Shown here in pieces: positions 9 to 12,071 of a stretch of DNA of 12,071 nt (its first letter is position 1; each line of letters starts with the position of its first letter). The DNA is from Chitinophagaceae bacterium (GTDB lineage: Bacteria; Bacteroidota; Bacteroidia; Chitinophagales; Chitinophagaceae): assembly GCA_025455205.1 (NCBI GenBank), contig JALOMZ010000018.1, forward strand, positions 1 to 12,071, in the 5' to 3' direction. The notes below the pieces were generated by a model. That model searched no databases and had not been told where the DNA came from. It saw nothing but the letters and a program-made list of their open reading frames with translations. Position numbers and translations under genes: made by a program.

Positions 9-221
9 TCAGGTCGTCCTTTGTTTGCCCTCCATATCCTGCGAGAACACAATGGCGCCGGGCGGGCAGGCAGCTTCGCAACGTCGGCACCAGATGCAGA
101 GGCTTTCCTCAAACCCAATCAGACCCCGGTAATCATCGGGCTTGAAGGTGGGCTCAAAAGGATACCGGGTGGTAACGGGTTTCTTGAAGAGGTTTTCTAT
201 GGCTGTGAGGAAGGTATTCAT
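9..221 (-). CDS. echF: Ech hydrogenase ferredoxin-like subunit EchF, short, one cluster motif
   Basis: This is the last ech gene read in the window and matches the N-terminus of EchF/NuoI-type polyferredoxin subunits, which pass electrons from ferredoxin to the hydrogenase small subunit. The start at 221 (70 aa) is preferred over an upstream ATG at 257, because 257 lies inside echE and because residues 5-23, with NLFKKPVTTRYPFEP-like wording, align with the start of known EchF proteins. One CxxCxxCxxxCP motif is visible (C42, C45, C48, C52). Family members are usually about 120 aa or more with two such motifs. Here tandem stops (TGATGA, 11-6) end the frame 18 residues after C52. It lies 11 bp after echE with an A-rich leader. 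Either the protein is truly short, or one base is missing near position 10: inserting a G there would give RTTWMKF and continue the frame. Identity is fairly sure, integrity is not. Confidence 0.75.
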   Translation of the reverse strand: MNTFLTAIENLFKKPVTTRYPFEPTFKPDDYRGLIGFEESLCIWCRRCEAACPPGAIVFSQDMEGKQRTT

Positions 222-232
222 GGCTTGTTTTT

Positions 233-1321
233 TTAACGGGCGGTGCACGACAGGCAAGGGTCGTATGAAGCAATGATGGCGGGGGCTGAGCCATATTCAT
301 TTCCCCGGAAGGCCTCCACCATGGCAGCTACATTGCTGAAGGTAGGGGCCTTTATCTTCAGTCGTTCCAGTACCTGTGTTTTATTGCCTTTGGCGTAGTA
401 GAACAATTCTCCCCGCGGTGCTTCCAGCCTCACCACGGCTTCGCCATCGGGGAAGGCCTTGGTTTCTGTTACAATGGGGGTTTCAGGTAATCCGTTGATG
501 ATATTGCGGATGATGCTGATGGATACATACAGTTCGCGGATGCGCACCATGTTGCGGGCATACACATCGCCGCTGGTTTCGGTTACCATTTCAAAGCCGG
601 CTTCCTTCCAGGGCAGCAGGTCTTCGGTTTCGTTTCGCACATCCACGGCCAGGCCCGCAGCCCGGGCAAAGGGGCCAACCACATTCAGGCGCAGGGCTGT
701 TTCGCGGCTGATGGCACCCACGCCCTTGTTCTTGAGCGAAAGGGTCCAGTTGTTGCGGAAGATGTCGGCCAATTCTTCCAGTTGCGGCATGAAATGATCA
801 AGGCGACGCAATACCTGGTTGGCCACTTCCGGCTTCAGGTCGCGGGCCACACCGCCAACAATGGAAAAATCGTACTGGATGCGGTTGCCGCAGATGGCTT
901 CCAGCAGCTCCATGGAGAATTCGCGGTACTGCATCGTTTTCATGAACAATGCCTCAAAGCCTGAATTCTCAGCCACATGGCTCAGACACAGCAGGTGTGA
1001 ATGGATGCGGTCCAGTTCAATCACCAGCATGCGCAGGTATTTGGCGCGTTTGGGTATTTCAATCTTCAGTAGTTTTTCCGCCACCTGGGAATAGGCGGTG
1101 GTGTGGGAAATGGAGCAAAGCCCGCACACCCTGCCTACCACAAAACTCACCTGCCTGAACTTGAACTTGGTGCAGCAGGCTTTTTCAATGCCACGGTGCA
1201 CATAGTACACATTGGCATCGGTATGCACGATCTTTTCGTTTTCCGTGGTGAACTTGAAGTGCAGGGGTTCCAGCAGGGAAATGTGTTGCGCTCCAACCGG
1301 TATTTCATATTGTTGTGCCAT
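233..1321 (-). CDS. echE: Ech-type energy-converting [NiFe] hydrogenase large subunit EchE
   Basis: Catalytic large subunit of a membrane-bound group 4 [NiFe] hydrogenase, homologous to NuoD/Nqo4 of complex I. It is predicted to reduce protons with electrons from ferredoxin, or the reverse, at the cytoplasmic face of the membrane. At 362 aa it matches EchE (about 360). The Ni-Fe ligands are all visible: RVCGLCSISH gives C66 and C69, and the extreme C-terminus DPCLSCTAR gives C356 and C359. The HRGIEKA motif (42-48) is typical of the NuoD/EchE fold. The protein ends exactly at the Arg of the second motif, so there is no C-terminal peptide to be removed by a protease. This is known for some group 4 large subunits such as CooH. 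A Cys pair at 49-50 (ACCTKF) is unusual. It starts 2 bp after echD and sits in canonical echABCDEF order. True complex I NuoD lacks these cysteines, which rules it out. Confidence 0.93.
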   Translation of the reverse strand: MAQQYEIPVGAQHISLLEPLHFKFTTENEKIVHTDANVYYVHRGIEKACCTKFKFRQVSFVVGRVCGLCSISHTTAYSQVAEKLLKIEIPKRAKYLRMLVIELDRIHSHLLCLSHVAENSGFEALFMKTMQYREFSMELLEAICGNRIQYDFSIVGGVARDLKPEVANQVLRRLDHFMPQLEELADIFRNNWTLSLKNKGVGAISRETALRLNVVGPFARAAGLAVDVRNETEDLLPWKEAGFEMVTETSGDVYARNMVRIRELYVSISIIRNIINGLPETPIVTETKAFPDGEAVVRLEAPRGELFYYAKGNKTQVLERLKIKAPTFSNVAAMVEAFRGNEYGSAPAIIASYDPCLSCTAR

Positions 1322-1323
1322 AA

Positions 1324-1665
1324 CTACTTGTTCTTTCTGAGCGGTCCGCTGTCAAAATCGGGTTCCAGTACAAAGCCCTTTTCTGAACCTTCAATACGTA
1401 TATCCATAAGATCTACCAGTTCAGCTTCGGCCACCCAGGCTGATGCTACGATGCTGCGTATGGAGGGAATGGTGGCATCGGGGGAGGCGAGGGCAAAAAA
1501 GGTAGTGGTATCATAGGGCGGGGCATAGTGGCTGAAGAACCATTGGATCTCCAACTGCTGACCCAGGTCTACCGCATTCATTACCATGAAGTGGTGCTGC
1601 TCAGGATCATAGAACCGGCCTATATCTTCCTGCACGGTATCGAGGGAGGTGGCAATCTTGTTCAT
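1324..1665 (-). CDS. echD: Ech hydrogenase subunit EchD (NuoC-like)
   Basis: A small (113 aa) soluble protein in the position of EchD, which is related to the NuoC/30 kDa subunit of complex I and supports docking of the large subunit. The recognisable family region is in the second half (about residues 65-105): IPSIRSIVASAWVAEAELVDL followed by a D-I-x-x-x-G stretch and FVLEPD, which corresponds to the NuoC signature around a conserved Trp and Glu/Asp-rich segment. Sequence conservation outside this part is weak, as is usual for EchD. Its ATG overlaps the echC stop as ATGA (1662-1665), and its TAG lies 2 bp before the echE start, so translation is probably coupled on both sides. Assignment rests on length, the partial motif and the gene order. 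Confidence 0.82.
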   Translation of the reverse strand: MNKIATSLDTVQEDIGRFYDPEQHHFMVMNAVDLGQQLEIQWFFSHYAPPYDTTTFFALASPDATIPSIRSIVASAWVAEAELVDLMDIRIEGSEKGFVLEPDFDSGPLRKNK

Positions 1666-2189
1666 ACGGTAGGGGTTGGGGTAATGGATGCCGCAACATG
1701 CCGGCGGTTGAGTTGTTCATCTTCGGCAATCGGCTGCGTATTCAGCCTTACGGATGCTTCCATGTCTTTGTTCTTCTGTTCAAGAATGGCGAGCGCCTGC
1801 ACCACCCCGTCGATGATCTGTTCGGGGCGGGTACCGCAACCGCATACATACACATCCACCGGAATGAACTGGTCTACGCCGCCTTCGCAGTTGTACATGC
1901 CACGGAAAACGCCGCCGGTGCTGGCGCAGGCGCCGCATGCTACCACTACTTTCGGCTCCGGCATCTGGGCGTAGATCTCCACCAGTCGCTCGCGTGAACG
2001 CTTGGTAACCGGACCCGTCACCAGCAGTATGTCCGATTGTTTCGGATTGCCTGTGTTAATCATCCCAAATCTTTCAATGTCATACTTGGGGGCCAGGCAG
2101 GCCAATATTTCAATATCGCAGCCATTGCATCCGCCGGCATTATAGTGCAGGATCCAGGGCGATTTTTTTCTGTAGGTGGCCAGTTTCAT
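1662..2189 (-). CDS. echC: Ech hydrogenase small subunit EchC (NuoB-like)
   Basis: Electron-transfer small subunit of the energy-converting hydrogenase, homologous to NuoB/Nqo6. It carries the [4Fe-4S] cluster next to the NiFe site. The four ligands can be assigned as C21 and C24 in GGCNGCDIE, C88 in ACGACAS, and C118 in CGCGTRPE. Most relatives have a Pro two residues before the last ligand (xPGC); here it is a Cys (C116), giving an extra thiol beside the cluster. The core ends near residue 145 and is followed by a roughly 30-residue polar tail (KNKDMEASVR onward, ending in TPTPTV) that is not part of the NuoB fold. Length is 175 aa. The start overlaps the echB stop by 4 bp (ATGA) and the stop overlaps the echD start in the same way, so this is tightly coupled operon translation. 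Confidence 0.93.
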   Translation of the reverse strand: MKLATYRKKSPWILHYNAGGCNGCDIEILACLAPKYDIERFGMINTGNPKQSDILLVTGPVTKRSRERLVEIYAQMPEPKVVVACGACASTGGVFRGMYNCEGGVDQFIPVDVYVCGCGTRPEQIIDGVVQALAILEQKNKDMEASVRLNTQPIAEDEQLNRRHVAASITPTPTV

Positions 2190-3025
2190 GATAGGCTGTT
2201 GATGAGCAGGTTGATAAAGGCAAGCGAGAAGGATACGCCCAGCGAGAAGCGCAGCATCTGCTTGTAGTTGACCCGGGCGGTGGCATTATCCAGCGCGTTG
2301 AGGTAGATAAAGGTGAAGAGCATGAGGCCGATGCCGAGCAGGATATTGCTGCCGGCAAACAGATACACCAGGGTATAGGAGAAAATATAGTCCAGCCATT
2401 TGGCAGTATAAACAGCTTCGTAGTATATGCCGGAAAACTCCAGCTCCACACCGCCGGTTACTTCCTGGTGGGCTTCGGCTACGTCGAAGGGGGATTTTTT
2501 AAGTTTAATGGGCAATACCAGCAGCAGGGCCACAAAGGCAAGCGGCATCTTGTACAGCAGGGGTTGCGGATGGTGGAATGCGGCGCTGGCTTCAAAACTG
2601 CCGGTGATCATGTACATGGATACGGCAATCAGGATCAGCACGGGCTCATATGCAATGATGCTGAGGGCGGTACGGTTGGCGCCCAGGTGGCTGAATATGG
2701 ATCGGGTGCTGTATCCTGCCAGTATGATCAGTGCGGTGTAGAGGAGGTGCAGGAAAATGACCAGGATGAGGTCGCCACCCAGCAGAAATACCCCGAGGGC
2801 GTACCATAGCGATACAAAATGCATAATGCCCAGGAAGGCATGGGCAGAGTGCACCACCATGCGCCGTTTGTCGGCCAGTTTCAGGAAATCGTAAAATGGT
2901 TGCAGCACTGGCGGACCAATGCGCCGTTGCATGCGCGCCCTGATCACCCGCTCCAAACCGTATACAAGTCCGCCGAGAAAGGGAGCAAGGATAATCAGTA
3001 TTATGGCAATGAATGTATGGCTCAT
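2186..3025 (-). CDS. echB: Ech hydrogenase membrane subunit EchB (NuoH-like)
   Basis: Integral membrane subunit homologous to NuoH/Nqo8. In complex I and Ech it anchors the soluble arm and forms the entry to the ion-translocation path. At 279 aa it shows about eight hydrophobic segments. It carries the two best-known family motifs: GLERVIRARMQRRIGPP at about residues 23-39, and the cytoplasmic loop SPFDVAEAHQEVTGG followed by VELEFSG (about 172-195), rich in the conserved acidic residues thought to couple electron transfer to ion movement. I chose the ATG at 3025 (MSHTFIAIILI) because it gives a clean first membrane helix and lies 11 bp after the echA stop. The longer frame back to 3160 would overlap echA by over 100 bp and adds a non-homologous stretch. 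Confidence 0.92.
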   Translation of the reverse strand: MSHTFIAIILIILAPFLGGLVYGLERVIRARMQRRIGPPVLQPFYDFLKLADKRRMVVHSAHAFLGIMHFVSLWYALGVFLLGGDLILVIFLHLLYTALIILAGYSTRSIFSHLGANRTALSIIAYEPVLILIAVSMYMITGSFEASAAFHHPQPLLYKMPLAFVALLLVLPIKLKKSPFDVAEAHQEVTGGVELEFSGIYYEAVYTAKWLDYIFSYTLVYLFAGSNILLGIGLMLFTFIYLNALDNATARVNYKQMLRFSLGVSFSLAFINLLINSLS

Positions 3026-3036
3026 ACAAGTGGTAT

Positions 3037-4902
3037 TTAGATCAGGGCTGCCACCAGCAGGGCACCAAAAAGCACCACGCCAATGGTAATGGCATAGGGA
3101 GTGGCTTTGTCTGCGGTCAGGTAGAAGGAGGAGAATGAATAGTTCACTTTTTCGCCGCACATGTATTCCCGGGTGCGGTCTACATGCCGGAAGTGAATGA
3201 ACATGGCTGCAATGATGGCGGCAGGGAGCAGGAAGAAGGCAATGAGGGGCGGAAGCACGGGCAGCTTCATGGTATCAACAAAAATGCTCCATCCCTTGAT
3301 CATCACGGTAACGTCCTGTGCCGAAGCGGCTGCTGCCACAGGGGCAAAAAAATGGGTGAGCAGCAGGGGCAGCCCAAAAATGCTGAGGGCAATAAGCGCC
3401 AGCAGGGCATAGATGGTGCCGGTATAGGTTTTGCCGGTTTTTTCAAATTGCACCCGATCGTGCTCGCCCGATCTTGCAATCAGCAGACCAATCACCTTGG
3501 TGTAGAGCAGCGTGAGCACGGCGCTGCCGCATACTACCGCTATGAGGGTGAATGCGCCCAGCAGCCTGGCATCCACGGCATAGCTGCCCAGGGTTTCAAT
3601 GCTCAGCCACTTGCCTATGAAGGCGCCAAAGGGCGGCAGCAACAGGCTCATAAATCCAATGGTGGTGACCAGGGCGGTGAAGGGGCCGCTTTCGCCCAGC
3701 CGGTCCATATCCGAAGTATTCTTGAGGTGGAATACCCGCTCCAGGATGCCTGCATTCAGGAAGAGCATGCTTTTTGAAATGCCGTGGAAGAGCATGAGTG
3801 CGAGGGAAGCTACCACGGTAACGGGGGTGCCCAGGGCTCCCATCATTATCATCAGGGCCAGCAGGGCAATGGTGGAATGGGCGAGTATGCGTTTGAAGTT
3901 ATCCTGTGCCAGTGCTCCCACGGCGGCCGCAATAAATACGAAAGCGGTAAGCGCTATAATGGCCGATGCCAGGGGGGTGTCTTTCAGTGCCGGCGACAGC
4001 CTGAGTATCATGAAGGGGGCAATTTTCACCATGGTGCTGGAGTGCAGCAGGGCGCTCACCGGGGTGGGAGCCACCATGGCACCCAACAGCCAGCTGCTGA
4101 AGGGAAGCTGGGCGCCTTTGATAAGCGCGGCCATGCTCAAAAGGGCCAGGGGCAGCAGCAGGCCTCCGGCCGGTGCCAAGGCCAGCAGGTTGCTGAAACT
4201 GGCTTCGCCAGATCCGGAGCGCAGCAGGAAAAAGATGGCACCCAAAATGGCCAGTCCGCCCACCTGGTTCATCCAGAGCGCGGTTATGGCATTGGCGCGC
4301 GATTCTGCATCCTGCCGGAAGCTGATAAGCAGGAAGGATGCCAGCGTGGTGAGTTCAAAAAACAGGAAGAAATATTCCAGGTTGTCAGCACAAACCACCA
4401 GGTTCATGGCGCCAATAAACCAGAATATGATGGACAGAAAATATTTTTTCCGGAACGGGCTGCAGGGTTCTTCCTCAATATACCGCAGGGAATAGATGGC
4501 AATGATGCCGCTGATCACATTGATGAGGATGAACATGAACGCGCTGAGCTCATCCACCATCAGTTGGGGTGCAGCCGTGGCAGGCATGTTGTTGAGCAGG
4601 TAGACAAGTCCACCTAACTGCAGCATGGTAAGCAATCCCACCAGGATGCTTTTTCTTTTAATGGCAATCCATCCGAAAAAAAGCAGGAGCAGCAGATCGG
4701 CGCCGGCCACCACTTCGTTGATGTAGTGTGGCAGGGTGATGCCAACAGCGCTGTTGGTGTTGGCGTAGGCGAATACAGACAGGATGGAAAGGATGATGGC
4801 GGCTGCAATGACCATCCATTTGGCTAATTGCCTGGGAAGGATGAGGAGGAGCAGGCTTACTGCCAGCGGAAGGCCAACCAGGCCTGCTAATAGAGATTCC
4901 AT
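3037..4902 (-). CDS. echA: Ech hydrogenase ion-pump membrane subunit EchA (NuoL/Mrp antiporter-like)
   Basis: Large (621 aa) polytopic membrane protein of the NuoL/NuoM/Mrp-antiporter family, predicted to pump H+ or Na+ when the hydrogenase turns over. About 14-16 hydrophobic segments are visible. Key family features are present: a membrane Glu in LFFELTTLASFLL, Lys residues in ALIKGAQLPF and HSSTMVKIA, the PTPVSALLHS loop, a membrane His in LAHSTIALL, and a Lys in FHGISKSMLFLNAG. The C-terminus has a charged HFRHVDRTREYMCGEK segment and a last helix, as in EchA. I chose ATG 4902 (MESLLAGLVGLPL). The in-frame ATG at 4932 lies inside an 11-bp inverted repeat and adds a basic stretch before the first helix. 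It is the first gene of the ech operon, 143 bp from hoxW. Other antiporter-like subunits are possible in theory, but order and length point to EchA. Confidence 0.92.
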   Translation of the reverse strand: MESLLAGLVGLPLAVSLLLLILPRQLAKWMVIAAAIILSILSVFAYANTNSAVGITLPHYINEVVAGADLLLLLFFGWIAIKRKSILVGLLTMLQLGGLVYLLNNMPATAAPQLMVDELSAFMFILINVISGIIAIYSLRYIEEEPCSPFRKKYFLSIIFWFIGAMNLVVCADNLEYFFLFFELTTLASFLLISFRQDAESRANAITALWMNQVGGLAILGAIFFLLRSGSGEASFSNLLALAPAGGLLLPLALLSMAALIKGAQLPFSSWLLGAMVAPTPVSALLHSSTMVKIAPFMILRLSPALKDTPLASAIIALTAFVFIAAAVGALAQDNFKRILAHSTIALLALMIMMGALGTPVTVVASLALMLFHGISKSMLFLNAGILERVFHLKNTSDMDRLGESGPFTALVTTIGFMSLLLPPFGAFIGKWLSIETLGSYAVDARLLGAFTLIAVVCGSAVLTLLYTKVIGLLIARSGEHDRVQFEKTGKTYTGTIYALLALIALSIFGLPLLLTHFFAPVAAAASAQDVTVMIKGWSIFVDTMKLPVLPPLIAFFLLPAAIIAAMFIHFRHVDRTREYMCGEKVNYSFSSFYLTADKATPYAITIGVVLFGALLVAALI

Positions 4903-4909
4903 GACGGCG

Positions 4910-4940
4910 AATTTTATATGCCAGCGACGCATATAAAATT
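4910..4940. repeat. Perfect 11-bp inverted repeat upstream of echA
   Basis: Arms AATTTTATATG (4910-4920) and CATATAAAATT (4930-4940) are exact reverse complements separated by 9 bases. The element ends 8 bp upstream of the chosen echA start. It could be a repressor or activator operator, or a 5' leader hairpin that would cover the alternative ATG at 4932. The high A/T content contrasts with the GC-rich surroundings. Confidence 0.7.
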
Positions 4941-4964
4941 AGCAATCGGCAGAGGGGCAATACA

Positions 4965-4976
4965 TGACGACCGTCA
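4965..4976. repeat. Palindrome TGACGACCGTCA upstream of echA
   Basis: Perfect 5-bp arms (TGACG and CGTCA) with a 2-base centre, 63-74 bp upstream of the echA start. The size and symmetry fit a dimeric regulator half-site pair. No particular regulator can be named from sequence alone, and a 12-bp palindrome may occur by chance. Confidence 0.35.
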
Positions 4977-5003
4977 CGCTTTGATATGATCGGTATTAGC
5001 TGT

Positions 5004-5025
5004 GGCCGCCGGAAGGTTTGCGGCC
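5004..5025 (-). repeat. GC-rich hairpin after hoxW
   Basis: Arms GGCCGC (5004-5009) and GCGGCC (5020-5025) are exact reverse complements with a 10-base loop, starting 20 bp beyond the hoxW stop. It lacks a following run of T in the direction of transcription, so it is not a standard intrinsic terminator. It could slow transcription or protect the hox transcript end. Confidence 0.35.
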
Positions 5026-5045
5026 TGCTGCAGGTATGATGATAC

Positions 5046-5540
5046 TCAGGTTGCTTCCGCAGGGCTGGTATTCAGGGTTGGATGCTCTTGCAGGAGGCGG
5101 GAAAAGAAGTCCAACGCCCGGCCCAGGTTTCCGGATGCTTCGGTACTGAGCCCCACATGGAGGTCCCATTGCAGGCCGGTAATGGAAAGTATCCAGGCTT
5201 CCGGCTGCTGCTGGTACAATTCGCGGCAGAGATAAAGGATGGTCTCCGGGCTTTGCACGTGGCTGGAAAAGAAATAATGACCGGCTGGGAAGCATGAATT
5301 CCATGCATAGCCACCGGGATGGTGCTGGTGAGAGGCATCCACAAAAACAACGGATGGATAACGGCAGATCAGCAACGCGTCTTCCACCTGCAACTGGTAA
5401 CGCCATTCAACGTCCAGCCCTTCTATTGATAGCTGGCTCACTGCCTGGGCAAAACGCCACCCCAGGCCGTCATCGCCACGGCCTTCATTGCCGATACCAA
5501 TCACCAGCAGCCGATCGTTAGATGTTTCTGGTGCGTGCAT
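5046..5540 (-). CDS. hoxW: [NiFe] hydrogenase maturation protease HoxW
   Basis: Endopeptidase of the HybD/HycI/HoxW family (164 aa, usual size). It removes the C-terminal peptide of the large subunit after nickel insertion. The nickel-sensing residues known from HybD (Glu, Asp, His) are matched by E19 in GIGNEGRGDDGLGW (15-28), D68 in VVFVDAS, and H94 in SSHVQSPETIL. The ATG at 5540 places the start 23 nt inside hoxH, in another frame, so protease and substrate are probably translationally coupled. A later GTG at codon 13 would cut into the first beta strand and is less likely. HoxH carries a 26-residue extension whereas EchE has none, so HoxH is the expected substrate. Confidence 0.9.
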   Translation of the reverse strand: MHAPETSNDRLLVIGIGNEGRGDDGLGWRFAQAVSQLSIEGLDVEWRYQLQVEDALLICRYPSVVFVDASHQHHPGGYAWNSCFPAGHYFFSSHVQSPETILYLCRELYQQQPEAWILSITGLQWDLHVGLSTEASGNLGRALDFFSRLLQEHPTLNTSPAEAT

Positions 5541-6972
5541 CGAGGAGATTTCCCTGGTGATCAAATAGTTCTGCGCGCAGGGGCATTTTCCCCAGGGCCT
5601 GGGTGGCACAGCTCAGGCAGGGATCGTAGGCCCGTATGGCCACTTCTACCTGGTTGAGCATACCCTCTGTAACCTGCCCTTTGCGGCTGATGACATTTTG
5701 CGCCACCCATTTGACGGCGGTATTCATGGCATCATTGTTATGGGTGGTGGATACAATGAGGTTGCAACGGGTGATCCTTCCCTTGTCATCCACTTCGTAA
5801 TGATGGGTAAGGGTGCCCCGCGGAGCTTCGATGATGCCGATGCCTTTGTTTCTGGGTGTTCCTTTACGCAGGAGATCCCCGCCCATAAGTTCCGGATCAT
5901 GCAGCAGCTCTTTCATGACTTCAGCACTGTGCAGGATTTCGATGAGGCGGGCCCAGTGGGCATACATCGTACTGTTGTTGGTTCTTTTTCCCGTGAAAGC
6001 CACAAAATCCTGCCGGGCCTGATCGGCCAGCGGCGTGCCAATGAAATCGCATACATTCATGCGGGCCAGCGGTCCCACGCGGTTCCAGCCCTTTTCGCGG
6101 CCTACCTGTTTCAGGTAGGGAAATTTCATATAAGACCATTGTGCCACCGCTTCGGAGAAGTAATCCTGGTATTCATCGGTGGATATGTCATCCAGGGTAC
6201 GCTGCCCTTCGCTGTCAACAGCCCGCAGCCTGCCATGGTAGAGGTCCAGGCCACCATTGGTATCCACCATGCCCAGGTGGCCCGATGGAAAGGCCGCAAA
6301 TTCATCCAGCAGCCGGCGGTTCTTTTCGTGGTAGCCTTTGATGAAGCCAACCATTTCCTGCGACCATTCAATCATGGTGTCTATGGAGGGGATGTTCAGG
6401 CCATCCAGGAAATAGTTCCTTTCTTCCGGCGTGAATGTTTTGTATACCCCGCCAGGTACTGCCAGGATGCCATGGATGCGCTTGCCGGCAACGGCTTTGA
6501 TGATCTCCTGCCCGAATTTTCGCATGGTGATGCCTTTCACTGCCAGTTCCTTGTTTTCCAGGGCTACTGCTACAACGTTTCGCTTGTCGGCCGGGGCATC
6601 CATGCCAAAAAGCAGGTCGGGGGAAGCCAGGTAGAAAAAGTGCAGGGCGTGCGACTGAAATACCTGTCCGTAATGCATCAGCCTGCGCAGCTTGGTGGCA
6701 GTTGGCGACAGGTCTTCGGGGTCTACCCCCACAATCTGGTCAATGGCTTTGGCGGCAGCCAGGTGGTGGCTTACCGGGCAGATGCCACACAGGCGTTGCA
6801 CCAACACGGGTGCCTCCCAGTAGGGGTGGCCCTGCACAAAGCGCTCAAAACCGCGGAACTCCACAATATGAAAGAAGGAGTCGCGTACCTGCCCGTATTC
6901 ATCGAGGTGAATGGTTACCCTGCCGTGGCCTTCTACCCGGGTTACCGGATCTATGGTAATCTTTCTATTCAT
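5518..6972 (-). CDS. hoxH: NAD-reducing [NiFe] hydrogenase large subunit HoxH
   Basis: Catalytic large subunit of a group 3d soluble bidirectional hydrogenase, oxidising H2 or reducing protons in the cytoplasm. At 484 aa it matches Cupriavidus HoxH. Visible motifs are TRVEGHGR with E14 near the N-terminus, RLCGICPVSHH with Ni ligands C62 and C65, a conserved APRG stretch in IGIIEAPRGTLTHH, and DPCLSCATQALG with ligands C452 and C455. Residue 458, just after which relatives are cut by the protease, is Gln, where the usual residue is His. The 26 residues that follow (A459-I484) are a typical cleavable extension. I start at ATG 6972 (MNRKITIDPVTRVEG), 13 bp after the hoxUY stop. The longer frame back to 7071 overlaps hoxUY and has no homology. 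Confidence 0.95.
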   Translation of the reverse strand: MNRKITIDPVTRVEGHGRVTIHLDEYGQVRDSFFHIVEFRGFERFVQGHPYWEAPVLVQRLCGICPVSHHLAAAKAIDQIVGVDPEDLSPTATKLRRLMHYGQVFQSHALHFFYLASPDLLFGMDAPADKRNVVAVALENKELAVKGITMRKFGQEIIKAVAGKRIHGILAVPGGVYKTFTPEERNYFLDGLNIPSIDTMIEWSQEMVGFIKGYHEKNRRLLDEFAAFPSGHLGMVDTNGGLDLYHGRLRAVDSEGQRTLDDISTDEYQDYFSEAVAQWSYMKFPYLKQVGREKGWNRVGPLARMNVCDFIGTPLADQARQDFVAFTGKRTNNSTMYAHWARLIEILHSAEVMKELLHDPELMGGDLLRKGTPRNKGIGIIEAPRGTLTHHYEVDDKGRITRCNLIVSTTHNNDAMNTAVKWVAQNVISRKGQVTEGMLNQVEVAIRAYDPCLSCATQALGKMPLRAELFDHQGNLLDARTRNI

Positions 6973-6985
6973 GGCTGTGCGGGGG

Positions 6986-8260
6986 TTAATCGTATTTGAA
7001 TTCGGGGTATAGTATGGAGTATTCTTCACCCCACAGCAGGTTTTTGACGGCCTTCCAGATATGGTTGGCATCTGGCGGGCATCCCGGGATATGGTAGTCG
7101 ATCTTCACAATTTCATTGCATGCATATACGCGGTCAAGGATCTTGGGAAGGTCTTCATGATAGGGGATGATATGGGCGCCCGGTTCTCCGGTGGGGCTGT
7201 TGAGATAGGCTTCTTCCAGGCATTCGCCCAGCGGAATGCCGTTGCGCATGGTGGGAAGGCCACCCCATACGGCACATTCTCCTACCGATACCAGCAGGTC
7301 GCAATGTTCACGGAAGAGACGCAATGTTTCCACGTTGTCCGAATTGCAAACACCGCCTTCAATAAGGCCTATATGGCAGCGCGAAGTGAATTGTTTGAAA
7401 TCGGTGAGGGGTGATTTGTCAAACGACACCAGTTCCACCATGTCGAGCAGGTCTGTGTCAATGTCCAGCATGGACATATGGCACCCAAAGCAACCAGCCA
7501 GTGAGGTAGTGGCCACTATCTTCTTCTCCATAACCGGTGTGCGGGTGCGGGCCGATTCTTTGCGTCTGCCATAATCCCTTTGCACGGATTGGTTGTCGAA
7601 CTTCCGCGTTCCAAATGGCATGGACAGGCTGTTGTTGCGCACAATGATGGCCCCGGTAGGACAGATCTCCATGGCATGCAGGGCCTGCGCTTCGCTGAGC
7701 TGCGCTTCCTGCTCATAATCGATGCCCACTACAGTGTCGTTGCCCCTGTTCTGGTAATTGAATACCCGCTTGCCGGTTTCTGTTTTTACATCCACCACAC
7801 AGCGCAGGCATTTGATGCACCGGTTGTGTTCCATCACCATGCGGCGGGGCTGGAAGTCGATGCGTCTGTCTTCAAACACATGCGGAAACCGGGTGGCGGC
7901 AATGCCCAGTTCGTAGCCCATGTGCTGCAGGTCGCAGTTGCCGCTCTTTTCACAGGCCGGGCAAACATGGTTGCCTTCTGCAAACATCATTTCCACCACG
8001 GCCTTGCGGGTGTCCTGCAATTCGGGGGTGTTTACTTCCACCACCAGTCCTTCGGAGATCCGTTCGGTGCAGGCAGGGGCATATTTCCCATTGATCCTGC
8101 AGGTGCAAATGCGGCAGGTGCCCAGCGGAGGTTCAATATGTTCGTAATAGCAGAGGGAGGGAATGAAAATGTTGTTGGCCCGGGCTACTTCCATCAGATT
8201 GCTGCCCTTTTCTGCCTGTATGGATTGTCCATCTATGGTTATATGCACGAGTTCAGGCAT
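6986..8260 (-). CDS. hoxUY: Fused HoxU-HoxY: diaphorase iron-sulfur subunit joined to hydrogenase small subunit
   Basis: One 424-aa reading frame holds two proteins that are separate in Cupriavidus. Residues 1 to about 237 are HoxU: an N-terminal [2Fe-2S] domain (C37, C49, C52, C64), a GNHVCPACEKSGNC segment (H98, C100, C103, C109) and a [4Fe-4S] part with CIKCLRC and a later ICPTGA. Residues 244-424 are HoxY, the hydrogenase small subunit with the proximal [4Fe-4S] cluster: GCFGCHMSMLDID (C257, C260), SVGECAVWGG and IPGCPPDA. They are joined by an Arg-rich stretch (about 227-243) with no stop codon. M244 could act as an internal start. The start at 8260 follows the hoxF stop by 4 bp and fits HoxU homologs; an upstream in-frame ATG at 8305 lies within hoxF. 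The product would wire electrons from HoxF to HoxH. Confidence 0.92.
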   Translation of the reverse strand: MPELVHITIDGQSIQAEKGSNLMEVARANNIFIPSLCYYEHIEPPLGTCRICTCRINGKYAPACTERISEGLVVEVNTPELQDTRKAVVEMMFAEGNHVCPACEKSGNCDLQHMGYELGIAATRFPHVFEDRRIDFQPRRMVMEHNRCIKCLRCVVDVKTETGKRVFNYQNRGNDTVVGIDYEQEAQLSEAQALHAMEICPTGAIIVRNNSLSMPFGTRKFDNQSVQRDYGRRKESARTRTPVMEKKIVATTSLAGCFGCHMSMLDIDTDLLDMVELVSFDKSPLTDFKQFTSRCHIGLIEGGVCNSDNVETLRLFREHCDLLVSVGECAVWGGLPTMRNGIPLGECLEEAYLNSPTGEPGAHIIPYHEDLPKILDRVYACNEIVKIDYHIPGCPPDANHIWKAVKNLLWGEEYSILYPEFKYD

Positions 8261-8264
8261 GGCA

Positions 8265-10004
8265 TCAGATTTTATATTGATCGTAAGCTGCGGTGGCGGC
8301 GTCAAGGTCGAATTTCAGGTTGAGGCCATTGTAGGTCTTGTCCATCCTTTCCCGGAAATACGCGTTGAATTTTTCCATGGCATAAATGAGGCTGTTGGTG
8401 GCCGTTTTACCCAGTCCGCAGCGGCTGGTATTCTTCATGATGATGCCCCATTGTTTCAGTTCTTCCAGGTCTGTTTCATTGGCCAGCCCGTTGTTCAGCC
8501 GTTCCAGTTTGCGCTGAATGATGAAATTGCCGGCGCGGCAGGGGGTGCAAATGCCACAGGATTCCGACCGGAAAAACGACGCATAGTTCAGCAGTACTTT
8601 CACCAGGTCGCGCTGCCTGTTGAAGATCATGAAGGATCCGCCGGAACGTATGTCTTTGCGTGCCAGCAGGTCGAGCATGGAAATGCGACGGTATTTGTCT
8701 TTGATGGAAATGCATTCGCCGGATGGGCCGCTCACCTGGATGAAATAGGGATCCTCTGCTTCGCAGAGTTCCAGCAATTCGGCCACCGTCATGCCCCATT
8801 CAATTTCATAGATGCCGGGCAGTTTGCAGTCGCCGGATACACTCAGCAACTTCACGCCGGGTGAGCCGGGTATGCCCAGCTGGGTATAGGCTTCAGTGCC
8901 CAATGCGAGGATGCGGGCGGCCGCACAGAAGGTCTCTACATTATTGATGACCGTAGGTTGCTGCAGGTAGCCTTTTTCCACCGGGAAATACCATTTTGTT
9001 CTGGGCTCACCCCGCTTGCCTTCGAGCGATTCCAGCAGCGCTGTTTCTTCGCCGCACACATAGGAGCCTGCGCCCATTTGTACCCGTATGTCAAAATCAA
9101 AGCCTTTGATGCCACAGCAATCTTTTCCCAGCAAGCCGGCGGTACGGTACTGCTGTATGGCGGTCTCCATACGGGGAAGCAGCCAGCGGTATTCACCCCG
9201 CAGGTAGATGATGCCGCAGGAAGCGCCAATGGTGTAACCACAGAGCAGCATCCCCTCGATGATGGTATTTGATTGGGTATTGATGAGCACCCGGTCTTTG
9301 AATGTGCCCGGTTCGCCTTCGTCGGCATTGCATACAACGTATTTAGGCGCAGCTTCCTGCTCCCGGGCGGCCAGCCATTTCTTCCAGGTGGGGTAGTAGG
9401 CCCCGCCACGGCCCGATAGTTCGGCCTTCTTTAAGGCCTCCAGTACACCTTCGGGGCCCAGGGTGACGGCGCGGCTGAGGGCGGAACCCGGATGGAATTC
9501 CCGGAAGAACACGGTTCCGTTGCCAGAAGGGGCATAACGAATATTGTCGGCCGGAATGTCGCAAATCTGCGCCGGGTCTGCACCCTGCTTCAGCGCCTGG
9601 ATGATATCCTTCACCTTGATGGCGTTCAGGTTGGTGAAGGGATAGAAATTGATGAGGGCAGCAGGCTCCTGGTCGCTCAGGCCAATGCAGGGGGTGTGGA
9701 ACAGGCCAAATGTGCCCGTGCGGTCAACAGAGCCCAGGCTGGCGCCGGTTTCCCTTTCCAGGGTCTCCAGAATGCGGCCGGAGCCTTTCAGTTCAGCAAT
9801 GATACTTGTATTTAAGTAGATAGTGTTTTTTCCGGTAGGCTTGCGGTGGAAGAAATGATAAAATGAAATGATGCCTTCCACTTCAATGGCAGCAAGGTCA
9901 AATTCGGCGCTCAGTGCCGCCACATCTTCGTCCCTGATATATCCATGAGTCAGCTGGAGGTCCCAAAGACGGTTCATCATTTGGGTTTGCAGGGGTTCTT
10001 GCAT
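8265..10004 (-). CDS. hoxF: NAD-reducing hydrogenase diaphorase subunit HoxF with N-terminal HoxE-like domain
   Basis: A 579-aa flavoprotein that carries out NAD+/NADH chemistry for the soluble hydrogenase, built like Cupriavidus HoxF: a HoxE/NuoE-like domain (about 1-150) fused to a NuoF-like domain. Similarity is strong, for example FGLFHTPCIGLSDQEPA. The HoxE part keeps only one of four cluster cysteines (C106; the others are N65, A70, S110), as in Cupriavidus, so it should bind no [2Fe-2S]. The NuoF part has NADEGEPGTFKDR, GEETALLESLEGKRGEPR, and the [4Fe-4S] ligands C483, C486, C489 and C529. Oddly, the FMN/NADH glycine loop reads GRGGAYYPTWKKW (198-210) where the family has GRGGAGFPTGLKW, and PPFP reads WYFP. 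First gene of the hox operon; start at 10004, with alternatives at 9980 and 9977. Confidence 0.93.
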   Translation of the reverse strand: MQEPLQTQMMNRLWDLQLTHGYIRDEDVAALSAEFDLAAIEVEGIISFYHFFHRKPTGKNTIYLNTSIIAELKGSGRILETLERETGASLGSVDRTGTFGLFHTPCIGLSDQEPAALINFYPFTNLNAIKVKDIIQALKQGADPAQICDIPADNIRYAPSGNGTVFFREFHPGSALSRAVTLGPEGVLEALKKAELSGRGGAYYPTWKKWLAAREQEAAPKYVVCNADEGEPGTFKDRVLINTQSNTIIEGMLLCGYTIGASCGIIYLRGEYRWLLPRMETAIQQYRTAGLLGKDCCGIKGFDFDIRVQMGAGSYVCGEETALLESLEGKRGEPRTKWYFPVEKGYLQQPTVINNVETFCAAARILALGTEAYTQLGIPGSPGVKLLSVSGDCKLPGIYEIEWGMTVAELLELCEAEDPYFIQVSGPSGECISIKDKYRRISMLDLLARKDIRSGGSFMIFNRQRDLVKVLLNYASFFRSESCGICTPCRAGNFIIQRKLERLNNGLANETDLEELKQWGIIMKNTSRCGLGKTATNSLIYAMEKFNAYFRERMDKTYNGLNLKFDLDAATAAYDQYKI

Positions 10005-10108
10005 AGCCTGTATGTTTTAGGTGTCAGGCGGCAGCGGCGTTGGGTGCCGTTGGGGCAAAACAATCAAATCCTGCCTAGCAGCGGGGTGCGGCAAGCAGGC
10101 CGGAGAAA

Positions 10109-10137
10109 GGAATCCAACATCAAAGCTGATGCATTCC
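10109..10137. repeat. Imperfect hairpin in divergent region
   Basis: GGAAT pairs with ATTCC, and inside it CATCA pairs with TGATG, giving a 10-bp stem interrupted by an internal loop (CCAA against C) with a 4-base AAGC tip. It may be a leader RNA structure or simply chance. Confidence 0.3.
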
Positions 10138-10148
10138 GGTAGTGTTTT

Positions 10149-10163
10149 TGATGACATTCATCA
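10149..10163. repeat. Inverted repeat TGATGA-CAT-TCATCA, possible operator
   Basis: Perfect 6-bp arms at 10149-10154 and 10158-10163 with a 3-base centre, about mid-way between the two divergent starts (140-154 bp from each). Position and symmetry suit a dimeric regulator acting on both operons. It does not match the FNR site TTGAT-N4-ATCAA because the spacing is 7. Confidence 0.4.
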
Positions 10164-10205
10164 TAACTGCCCTGCTAATGGATCGATAGCTTCGAGCCCA
10201 CTTTT

Positions 10206-10218
10206 GGTCACCTTGACC
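10206..10218. repeat. Short inverted repeat GGTCA-CCT-TGACC
   Basis: Perfect 5-bp arms with a 3-base centre, about 84 bp upstream of the 10302 start. It is a candidate regulator site on the plus-strand side, of low weight because it is short. Confidence 0.25.
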
Positions 10219-10301
10219 CCTGCATGTGAAGCGAATTGCACATATGGCCTGGCAGCGTAAGCGCTGTTACTATTTCTCCACCCGTTATCTAATCTTATTG
10301 T

Positions 10302-10811
10302 ATGACGAGCCATCAAACGGTTCATGCCAAAGAACTGTCGAAGACCGATCCGCGTGTGAAGCTGATAGCCACCAAAATCAAGAAGGAAAACCGGCAGCCG
10401 GATGCATTGATTGAAATCCTGCATACGGCACAGAATGCCTATGGCTACCTGCCCAAAGAGGTGCTGACCTTTATTGCCAGGGAATTGCGGCTCCCTCCTT
10501 CGCGGGTGTATTCTACCGTTACTTTTTATCATTTCTTCTCGCTGAAATCGAAAGGAGAGCATACCTGCCTGGTGTGCACCGGCACCGCCTGCTATGTGAA
10601 GGGGGCACAGGCCCTGCTCAACAAACTGGAGCAGGAGTTTGGACTGCGGCCCGGCATGGTAACCCCCGACGAGAAAATGGGGGTGCAGGTGGCCCGCTGT
10701 ATAGGTGCATGCGGGCTGGCGCCGGCCGTGGTTATAGACAATGAAGTTATGGGCAAGGTGAGCGAGGAATCGATCATACAATCCATCCGGGAAAAAACAG
10801 GAACCTTATGA
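10302..10811 (+). CDS. hydC: NuoE/HydC-like [2Fe-2S] subunit of an NAD-linked oxidoreductase
   Basis: A 169-aa thioredoxin-fold ferredoxin of the NuoE family (24 kDa subunit of complex I, HydC of bifurcating hydrogenases, FdsG of formate dehydrogenases). All four cluster ligands are present, C92 and C97 (CTGTAC) and C133 and C137 (CIGAC), with a helical N-terminal domain (ILHTAQNAYGYLP, then VTFYHFFS). This contrasts with the degenerate copy inside HoxF. The stop overlaps the next start (ATGA, 10808-10811), so it works with the NuoF-like protein that follows. It is transcribed away from the hox genes. The NuoE family is certain. The symbol hydC depends on the unseen catalytic gene; NuoE of a complex I or a formate dehydrogenase subunit are alternatives. 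Confidence 0.85.
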   Translation: MTSHQTVHAKELSKTDPRVKLIATKIKKENRQPDALIEILHTAQNAYGYLPKEVLTFIARELRLPPSRVYSTVTFYHFFSLKSKGEHTCLVCTGTACYVKGAQALLNKLEQEFGLRPGMVTPDEKMGVQVARCIGACGLAPAVVIDNEVMGKVSEESIIQSIREKTGTL

Positions 10812-12071
10812 ACCGACATGAGTTGCAGGCAATGGCCACACAGGCCAAAATGAAACAACAGCAAGCCAAACACAGGATCTGCGTGTGTTGCGGCGCCAGC
10901 TGCATCTCCTCCGGCGCGGAGGAAGTGCTGAAGAAATTGCAGGCAGAGGTCAGCAGCCGGGGCCTGGAGCAGGAGGTAGAGGTGATCCCTTCCGGTTGCA
11001 TGGGACCGTGCAACCAGGGGCCGCTGGTGAAATGGCTGCCGGAAAACACCATTTATCAGCGCGTTGATTGCCATAACCTGGAAAGGATCGTGCAGGAGCA
11101 ACTGGTAGAGGGCCGGCCCATAGAAGACCTGTTGTTGTTTGCCGATTCCAGGGAAAAGCCTTTCCTGAACGCAGATGAAGATCCATTTTTCAGCAAGCAG
11201 CTGAAGATTGCCCTGAAAGACTGCGGCGACATCAATCCGGAAAATATCGAAGACTACCTGGCGGTAGGCGGCTACCAGGCCCTTGACAAGGCCCTGTTCC
11301 GCATGTCGCCGGAAGAAGTGATTTCCGAAGTGAAGCAGAGCCGTATAAGGGGCAGGGGAGGTGCAGGTTATCCCACCGGCCTGAAATGGGAAACCGTATA
11401 CCGGTATGTATCAGACCAGAAATATGTGATCTGTAATGGCGATGAGGGGGATCCCGGTGCTTTCATGGACCGCAGCGTGCTGGAAGGAAATCCGCACCGC
11501 GTGCTCGAAAGCATGGCCATTGCCGGGTATGCCATTGGTGCCAGTAAGGGCTATGCCTATATCCGCGGTGAATATCCGCTGGCTATCAAGCGTATTGAAC
11601 TGGCCATTAAGCAAGCTACCAAACTGGGACTATTGGGCAAGAATATCCTGGGCTCTCCCTTCTCCTTTGAGGTGGAAGTGCGCATAGGCGCCGGCGCTTT
11701 TGTGTGCGGGGAAGAAACGGCCCTTATTGCATCCATTGAGGGCAAGCGGGGAACGCCCCGGCCGCGTCCGCCTTTTCCGGCTGAATCCGGCTTGTGGGGC
11801 AAGCCCACATTGATCAATAATGTGGAGACTTTTGCGGCCATAGCGCCTATTGTACTGAAAGGCGGAGAGTGGTACAGCGAAACAGGCACGGCCAAAAGTG
11901 CAGGTACCAAGGTGTTTGCGCTGGCCGGCAAGATCCGTTACTCCGGGCTCATTGAGGTGCCCATGGGTACTACGCTCCGTGAAATTGTATTCGATATAGC
12001 CGGCGGCATGCAGCAGGATGGCGAATTCAAAGCGGCCCAAACCGGCGGACCATCTGGCGGATGCATTCCTG
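10808..12071 (+). CDS. hydB: NuoF/HydB-like NADH-binding flavoprotein, cut by window end
   Basis: The first 421 residues of a NuoF-family subunit that binds FMN and NAD(H). It opens with an extra thioredoxin-like [2Fe-2S] domain (about 20-100) whose ligands are visible as C27 or C28 with C32 (CVCCGASC) and C64 and C68 (CMGPC). Such a domain occurs in HydB of electron-bifurcating [FeFe] hydrogenases and is absent from plain NuoF. The flavin site is canonical: GRGGAGYPTGLKW (182-194), NGDEGDPGAFMDR, CGEETALIASIEGKRG and PPFPAESGLWGKPT. The last residues, GGPSGGCIP, are also HydB-like. The [4Fe-4S] CxxCxxC and any C-terminal ferredoxin domain lie beyond the window. It overlaps the preceding gene by 4 bp. 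Most likely HydB; an NAD(P)-linked formate dehydrogenase beta subunit is the main alternative. Confidence 0.85.
   Translation, partial: MNRHELQAMATQAKMKQQQAKHRICVCCGASCISSGAEEVLKKLQAEVSSRGLEQEVEVIPSGCMGPCNQGPLVKWLPENTIYQRVDCHNLERIVQEQLVEGRPIEDLLLFADSREKPFLNADEDPFFSKQLKIALKDCGDINPENIEDYLAVGGYQALDKALFRMSPEEVISEVKQSRIRGRGGAGYPTGLKWETVYRYVSDQKYVICNGDEGDPGAFMDRSVLEGNPHRVLESMAIAGYAIGASKGYAYIRGEYPLAIKRIELAIKQATKLGLLGKNILGSPFSFEVEVRIGAGAFVCGEETALIASIEGKRGTPRPRPPFPAESGLWGKPTLINNVETFAAIAPIVLKGGEWYSETGTAKSAGTKVFALAGKIRYSGLIEVPMGTTLREIVFDIAGGMQQDGEFKAAQTGGPSGGCIP

Follow-up and report, generated by a model that had tools for sequence, protein, structure and literature searches.

[NiFe] hydrogenases of group 3d interconvert electrons between H2 and NAD, and those of group 4e are ferredoxin-coupled ion pumps that are physiologically reversible, according to Table 1 of HydDB (PMC5037454). 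In anaerobic bacteria, group 4e enzymes are reported to make H2 in a reaction coupled to the oxidation of ferredoxin (PMC6776011). In Methanosarcina barkeri, hydrogen cycling through Ech, Frh, and Vht, with Ech as one source of the H2, has genetic support, and the same report notes that hydrogen cycling has been called controversial since 1981 (PMC6030560). Here we analyze a locus in which a NAD-type Hox hydrogenase (Hox1; HoxF, HoxUY, HoxH, and the protease HoxW) lies directly upstream of, and on the same strand as, an Ech hydrogenase, and divergently from a hoxEF pair that most likely begins a second Hox enzyme (Hox2). The stretch analyzed (the window) is an entire 12,071-bp contig (C263) of a Chitinophagaceae metagenome-assembled genome (MAG), so that the contig ends are the window ends; the MAG itself comprises 2.36 Mb in 397 contigs and is 61.67% complete. 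We put the chances at about even that this locus, in a Chitinophagaceae bacterium with respiring relatives, encodes an H2-centered system by which ferredoxin and NAD(H) exchange electrons; a flow of electrons through H2 is plausible.

The soluble NAD-reducing HoxFUYH hydrogenase of Cupriavidus necator (group 3d) has the same gene order as Hox1, F-U-Y-H-protease, and its subunits are 51.7% (HoxH), 46.5% (HoxF), 44.6% (HoxU half), and 51.1% (HoxY half) identical to those of the window. Genes were identified from open reading frames (ORFs) and profile matches, with starts set to an in-frame methionine that fitted the lengths of relatives. An earlier reading of the window, made from the sequence only, had named HoxF, HoxUY, HoxH, and HoxW on the minus strand and had placed HoxH in group 3d; all four genes are present, with the HoxF, HoxU, HoxY, and HoxH subunits in one run, and HoxH is indeed 3d-like, as judged by its identity to the C. 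necator enzyme and by its best PDB chain, 5xf9_D, which is named NAD-reducing hydrogenase. HoxH keeps both nickel motifs (RLCGIC and DPCLSC) together with a cleavable tail, and a protease gene, hoxW, stands alongside. The HoxW product shares 38.7% identity with the protease of C. necator and just passes TIGR00072 (47.9 bits against a cut-off of 47.45), with no Pfam match in the profile search. Unlike in C. necator, HoxU and HoxY are fused in the window, and in the set of loci collected by HoxH similarity (80 from relatives, 81 with the window) they form one ORF in 67 and are split in 10, four of these labeled Bacteroidales and six from other groups; the remaining 4 of the 81 were not assessable. 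A second difference is that ech genes lie downstream in some Chitinophagaceae, whereas the 13.5-kb stretch compared from C. necator has no ech gene in its annotation. Among named-genome matches, the window HoxH is 80 to 84% identical to those of Chitinophagaceae MAGs, 85% to one labeled Bacteroidota, and 82% to that of Ginsengibacter hankyongi, a strain of which is represented in our set (locus L048, genome G077); these matches support the phylum, Bacteroidota, suggested by the earlier reading. In a HoxH tree, from which L064, L111, and L115 were dropped for having at least two stops in the translated stretch and in which single stop letters were removed from rows, the window HoxH fell within a supported Bacteroidota/Balneolota set; the lone group 1 outgroup was very long-branched and too distant to root the tree, which held no rows of groups 3a to 3c. 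Hox2 sequences formed a single supported set in this tree, and the Hox1 rows required two changes.

The earlier reading had also named a six-gene echABCDEF operon. EchA to EchE are complete and in order, and EchF is cut by the contig end, so the subunits follow the order A to F, which we take to be that of Ech, with the last of them partial. The same order of subunit types is found in a plasmid operon of Butyrivibrio fibrisolvens, which we recognize as Ech, although its record does not give it that name. Proteins of this operon gave the top score among the references tried for EchB, EchC, and EchE, and EchC shares 53.9% identity with the NuoB-like subunit of Butyrivibrio. The Chitinophagaceae enzyme nevertheless differs from that of Butyrivibrio: the two EchE proteins are just 35.4% identical, and the Chitinophagaceae Ech occurs in Bacteroidota with terminal oxidases and is linked to hox genes and, in some cases, to genes for 2-oxoacid:ferredoxin oxidoreductases. 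Profiles of complex I subunits match the Ech proteins, mostly under their curated cut-offs, and EchC passes the cut-off of one NuoB subfamily (141.9 against 116). EchE has both nickel motifs, whereas the full NuoD2 of genome G413 has neither; the NuoD of the source MAG is a 276-amino-acid middle piece that is unable to show its nickel-motif status. The EchE chain stops 3 residues past its last cysteine and thus lacks a cleavable tail. Gene order, scores, and the JGI name "ech hydrogenase," carried by 20 among the 120 EchE homologues listed (of 2,212), point to group 4e, as the earlier reading had it, but a small EchE tree does not fix this placement: it set EchE apart from NuoD, with the subgroup within group 4 blurred by long branches. 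Moreover, identity to an Azospirillum enzyme with a different gene order is slightly higher (39.8%) than to the Butyrivibrio protein, although the score is lower (249 against 275 bits).

Several results connect Ech with Hox1. In a sample of 394 genomes of the family, EchE (E ≤ 1e-60) was found in 9 and window-type HoxH (at least 73% identity, a line drawn after the list was seen) in 10; both occurred in 8 genomes, EchE alone in 1, window-type HoxH alone in 2, and neither in 383 (Fisher p = 3e-14, computed over related genomes that are not independent). Co-occurrence of Ech and Hox1 is thus far above expectation, with relatedness uncorrected. The single EchE genome without window-type HoxH (G166) has a 45% type HoxH instead, so that some HoxH (E ≤ 1e-100) was present in all nine EchE genomes, against 28 of the 394 overall. 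In samples of the order (396 genomes) and class (395 genomes), both overlapping that of the family, EchE was found in 4 and 1 genomes, respectively, the source genome being counted among them. The Hox1-Ech neighborhood also recurs in Chitinophagaceae, which answers the search for the same synteny that the earlier reading had called for: ech genes lie downstream of hox1 on the same strand in 11 of the 80 HoxH loci, with a gap of between about 110 bp and about 8 kb. In G413, some 20 kb separates HoxH from EchE, and both have the same orientation.

How such a pair might work is suggested by the ferredoxin-linked genes around it and by searches of a 16-genome panel, the source MAG included, for POR_N, [FeFe] hydrogenase, COX1, RnfC, and NuoD. 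Reduced ferredoxin would be supplied by pyruvate:ferredoxin oxidoreductase (PFOR) and other 2-oxoacid:ferredoxin oxidoreductases: POR_N was found in all 16 genomes, in 14 of them within a frame of more than 1,000 amino acids, and the source MAG carries a full PFOR (TIGR02176, 1,807.7 bits). In 4 of the 12 loci with room for them, genes for KorD-VorB-KorB-KorC follow EchF and HypA (L042, L045, L049, and L050, the last of which ends within KorB); L122 and L131 were too short to be counted. Ech would then oxidize the reduced ferredoxin, form H2, and pump ions, and Hox1 would pass the electrons of H2 to NADH, which would feed complex I and respiration. COX1 was found in 15 of the 16 genomes, and NuoD-type genes besides EchE also in 15; G007, a genome assigned to the same genus as the source MAG, showed EchE only. 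The sum of the two reactions would be an Rnf-like ferredoxin:NAD+ step with H2 as the carrier. Rnf itself was set aside as a ferredoxin exit, since RnfC above the curated cut-off was found in none of the 16 genomes, against 4 of 14 control genomes, and the weaker RnfC matches lay mostly within NuoF- or HoxF-like frames. A more specific proposal, which we put forward tentatively and at less than even likelihood, is that in Bacteroidota that respire oxygen Hox1 and Ech, joined in some lineages by a 2-oxoacid:ferredoxin oxidoreductase, are packaged together genetically as a replacement for Rnf with H2 as its carrier, in which the H2 is internal and need not leave the cell. Hydrogen cycling in M. 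barkeri similarly has H2 as the carrier between hydrogenases and Ech among its sources (PMC6030560), but there Vht is described as recapturing H2 outside the cell, whereas in the present case an NAD-linked Hox of the cytoplasm would be the partner.

A number of observations weigh against such a coupling. In 69 of the 80 HoxH loci there is no ech gene in the fetched flanks, many of which are short, and Kor/Vor genes are absent after Ech in 8 of the 12 loci that could show them (L039, L041, L048, L130, L132, L133, L134, and L135). COX1 was not found in the source MAG, which is incomplete. A complex I cluster that seems to lack NuoEFG, identified by eye with NuoB and NuoD confirmed, is present in G413 and would be an alternative exit for ferredoxin; that this complex uses ferredoxin is possible. 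Genes on the opposite strand intervene between Hox1 and Ech in five loci (L041, L048, L050, L051, and L117), and in G219 and G037 the two enzymes are encoded on separate long contigs, so that a single Hox1-Ech transcript is not general; the assemblies of G267 and G306 are too fragmented to place one enzyme relative to the other. The unlinked cases would also fit a different explanation, in which Hox1, Hox2, and Ech are uncoupled enzymes, each making or using H2, that are grouped near shared hyp maturation genes, and hyp genes do lie next to hox or ech in L033, L037, L042, L117, and L134. We nevertheless consider independent enzymes unlikely: window-type HoxH is present in eight of the nine EchE genomes although, across the family, fewer genomes have it (10 of 394) than have the 42 to 45% type (23 of 394).

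The G413 cluster (G413:C4:1105001-1125000; L166) is preceded by a flavin reductase-like gene and lies about 20 kb from PFOR. A PFOR-sized gene and a second NuoD-type gene share a contig in 8 of the 16 genomes.

The enzymes are reversible, and the direction of electron flow would therefore depend on oxygen and H2. Used in reverse, Hox1 would take electrons from external H2 to NADH, and Ech would spend the ion gradient in making reduced ferredoxin for reductive carboxylation by 2-oxoacid:ferredoxin oxidoreductase or for other biosynthesis. The physiological reversibility that HydDB ascribes to group 4e would allow this (PMC5037454), and the prevalence of COX1 in the panel fits H2 uptake, as do a group 1-like hydrogenase in the source MAG and the strong PF00374 matches to similar enzymes that G413 and G421 gave. 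The Kor/Vor genes behind Ech in 4 of 12 loci also speak for reverse use. However, Hox1 and Ech are the sole PF00374 genes in 3 of the 10 genomes searched (G037, G418, and G419), which are thus without a separate uptake enzyme, and we regard reverse use as doubtful in comparison with transfer from ferredoxin to NAD through H2. On contig C322 of the source MAG (L032:1-3354) there is a third [NiFe] hydrogenase, whose large-subunit piece is closest to PRK10170 (565 bits against a whole-protein cut-off of 1,101); an apparent small subunit lies beside it and, as read by eye, the start of a hypB-like frame at the contig end.

On the plus strand, the earlier reading had seen a NuoE/NuoF pair of the bifurcating type. 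The two genes are real, but their assignment to the diaphorase arm (HydCB) of a bifurcating hydrogenase is not supported by comparison with relatives. The divergent layout of the window is found in 4 of the 80 loci (L047, L049, L050, and L051), where the pair, 72 to 82% and 83 to 87% identical to that of the window, is followed by HoxU, HoxY, and another HoxH with 44 to 45% identity to the window HoxH. Since these four relatives continue in this way, the C-terminal stretch of HydB is missing from L049 HoxF2, and the 16-genome panel yielded no [FeFe] hydrogenase, the pair most likely represents HoxEF, with which a second [NiFe] hydrogenase of group 3d type would begin. The cyanobacterial HoxEFUYH enzymes (group 3d) offer the nearest comparison: the L049 proteins are 69% (HoxF2, over 381 residues; the Acaryochloris HoxF reference is a 395-amino-acid piece), 48.6% (HoxU2), 43.7% (HoxY2), and 51.9% (HoxH2) identical to those of Acaryochloris. 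In contrast to the cyanobacterial arrangement, the genes diverge from Hox1-Ech in the four Chitinophagaceae, and the window has just hoxE and a partial hoxF. Scores to the HoxE profile (cut-off 224) were 223.9 bits for the window HoxE and 222.3 for that of L049, and L049 HoxU scored 332.8 against a cut-off of 333. Complete HoxEFUYH runs of the Hox2 type also occur elsewhere, in G007, G033, and G008 (L036, L037, and L038). Among ech-bearing loci with upstream sequence the pair is present in 4 of 10, being absent from L041, L042, L045, L046, L048, and L117. No second HoxH was found in the source MAG, which tells little because that genome is 61.7% complete.

The opposing view, in which the pair would be a HydC/HydB diaphorase serving either a bifurcating hydrogenase or a formate dehydrogenase, draws on the high PDB scores that HydABC and NiFe HydABCSL share with it through their NuoE/NuoF-like diaphorase subunits. 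The best match of the window HoxF2 piece is HydB 7q4v_B (526 bits), followed by the NiFe chain 7t2r_B (510 bits), both from enzymes that we take to be bifurcating, and the best match of the relatives' HoxH2 is 7t2r_D (506 bits), which speaks against HoxEF. Full-length L049 HoxF2 (546 amino acids), used for this comparison because the window's own copy is cut, matches 7q4v_B no further than residue 529 of 599 and 7t2r_B no further than residue 527 of 597, and thus is without the HydB C-terminal stretch, presumably a 2[4Fe-4S] domain. The [FeFe] hydrogenase expected of a HydABC enzyme, whose hydA gene the earlier reading had proposed to look for, was found in none of the 16 genomes, the source MAG at its 61.7% completeness included. 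Together with the hoxUYH synteny in relatives and the similarity of L049 HoxF2 to Acaryochloris HoxF, this makes a bifurcating or formate dehydrogenase partner very improbable. Ordinary complex I, an outcome that the earlier reading had allowed for, was likewise set aside for the pair, since relatives continue with hoxUYH rather than NuoG and the MAG has its own NuoD, with a NuoF-like match, on contig C379.

The two Hox enzymes may differ in their electron partners. HoxE2 has five cysteines at aligned places, four of which (92, 97, 133, and 137) we take to be cluster ligands. The NuoE-like domain of the window HoxF1 (579 amino acids) retains one of these four, and among full-length HoxF1 sequences (n = 69, window included) 62 retain one and 7 retain two. 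However, C. necator HoxF, from an enzyme that is presumably NAD-specific, also retains two of the four, so the argument is a matter of degree. Earlier studies in Synechocystis suggested that HoxE is needed for ferredoxin reactivity (PMC11647496). Because the cluster cysteines are mostly lost from HoxF1 and kept in HoxE2, and because of this suggested need for HoxE, we expect Hox1 to be NAD-only and Hox2 to be ferredoxin-capable. Hox2, which keeps HoxE, could pass electrons between H2 and either ferredoxin or NAD(P)H, as the Synechocystis enzyme does.

Each of these enzymes is of a known kind. As far as our searches go, what is new is the way in which they are packaged in Chitinophagaceae that have terminal oxidases, with some members carrying the two Hox lineages in divergent orientation and some carrying 2-oxoacid oxidoreductase genes; the literature searched, with most subscription journals outside its coverage, yielded no description of a locus of this kind in Chitinophagaceae. 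A Thiocapsa genome paper reportedly names both Ech and Hox hydrogenases. The recurrence of an Ech-type enzyme in Chitinophagaceae with terminal oxidases extends to G. hankyongi (L048, G077), and if H2 does carry electrons between ferredoxin and NAD in a respiring cell, hydrogen cycling would become testable in a named strain. Relatives that have only Hox1 and Ech as [NiFe] hydrogenases bear on such a test.

Features of the 12,071-bp window, with positions counted from its first letter
Feature	Position	Strand	Evidence
echF, incomplete; first 4Fe-4S motif present, remainder lost at contig end	9..221	-	ORF, profiles
echE, [NiFe] large subunit; motifs RVCGLC and DPCLSC	233..1321	-	ORF, profiles
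echD, NuoC-like	1324..1665	-	ORF, profiles
echC, NuoB-like small subunit	1662..2189	-	ORF, profiles
echB, NuoH-like	2186..3025	-	ORF, profiles, reference comparison
echA, NuoL/antiporter-like	3037..4902	-	ORF, profiles, reference comparison
hoxW, hydrogenase maturation protease	5046..5540	-	TIGR00072 just above cut-off
hoxH, Hox1 [NiFe] large subunit, C. necator-like group 3d; C-terminal tail past DPCLSC	5518..6972	-	
hoxUY fusion, diaphorase small subunit and hydrogenase small subunit	6986..8260	-	ORF, profiles
hoxF of Hox1, NuoE-like N-terminal domain fused to NuoF-like domain	8265..10004	-	ORF, profiles
Divergent intergenic region hoxF1/hoxE2, 297 bp	10005..10301	.	Arrangement common to four relatives
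hoxE of second hydrogenase (most likely Hox2); cluster cysteines retained	10302..10811	+	Profiles, relatives
hoxF of Hox2 (most likely); contig end cuts gene after residue 421	10808..12071	+	Profiles, relatives

Over the final ~20 contig bases (window 9-28), the EchF frame departs from the sequence shared by relatives and then meets a stop. EchF ORFs of 159 to 189 amino acids are present in five relatives (L041, L042, L048, L049, and L050), and two 4Fe-4S motifs were seen in each of the three sequences inspected (L042, L048, and L049). The loss of frame is likely an assembly error at the contig end rather than a true break. A simple pattern that we take to be Bacteroidota promoter-like had no match in six gaps of the HoxW-EchA type, the 143-bp gap of the window included, or in five divergent regions. 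In Flavobacteriaceae loci, including L079, L084, and L087, a weak, partial HoxH match (~26 to 31% identity) lies on the opposite strand a few kilobases from HoxH and may represent the large subunit of a further hydrogenase encoded close to Hox.

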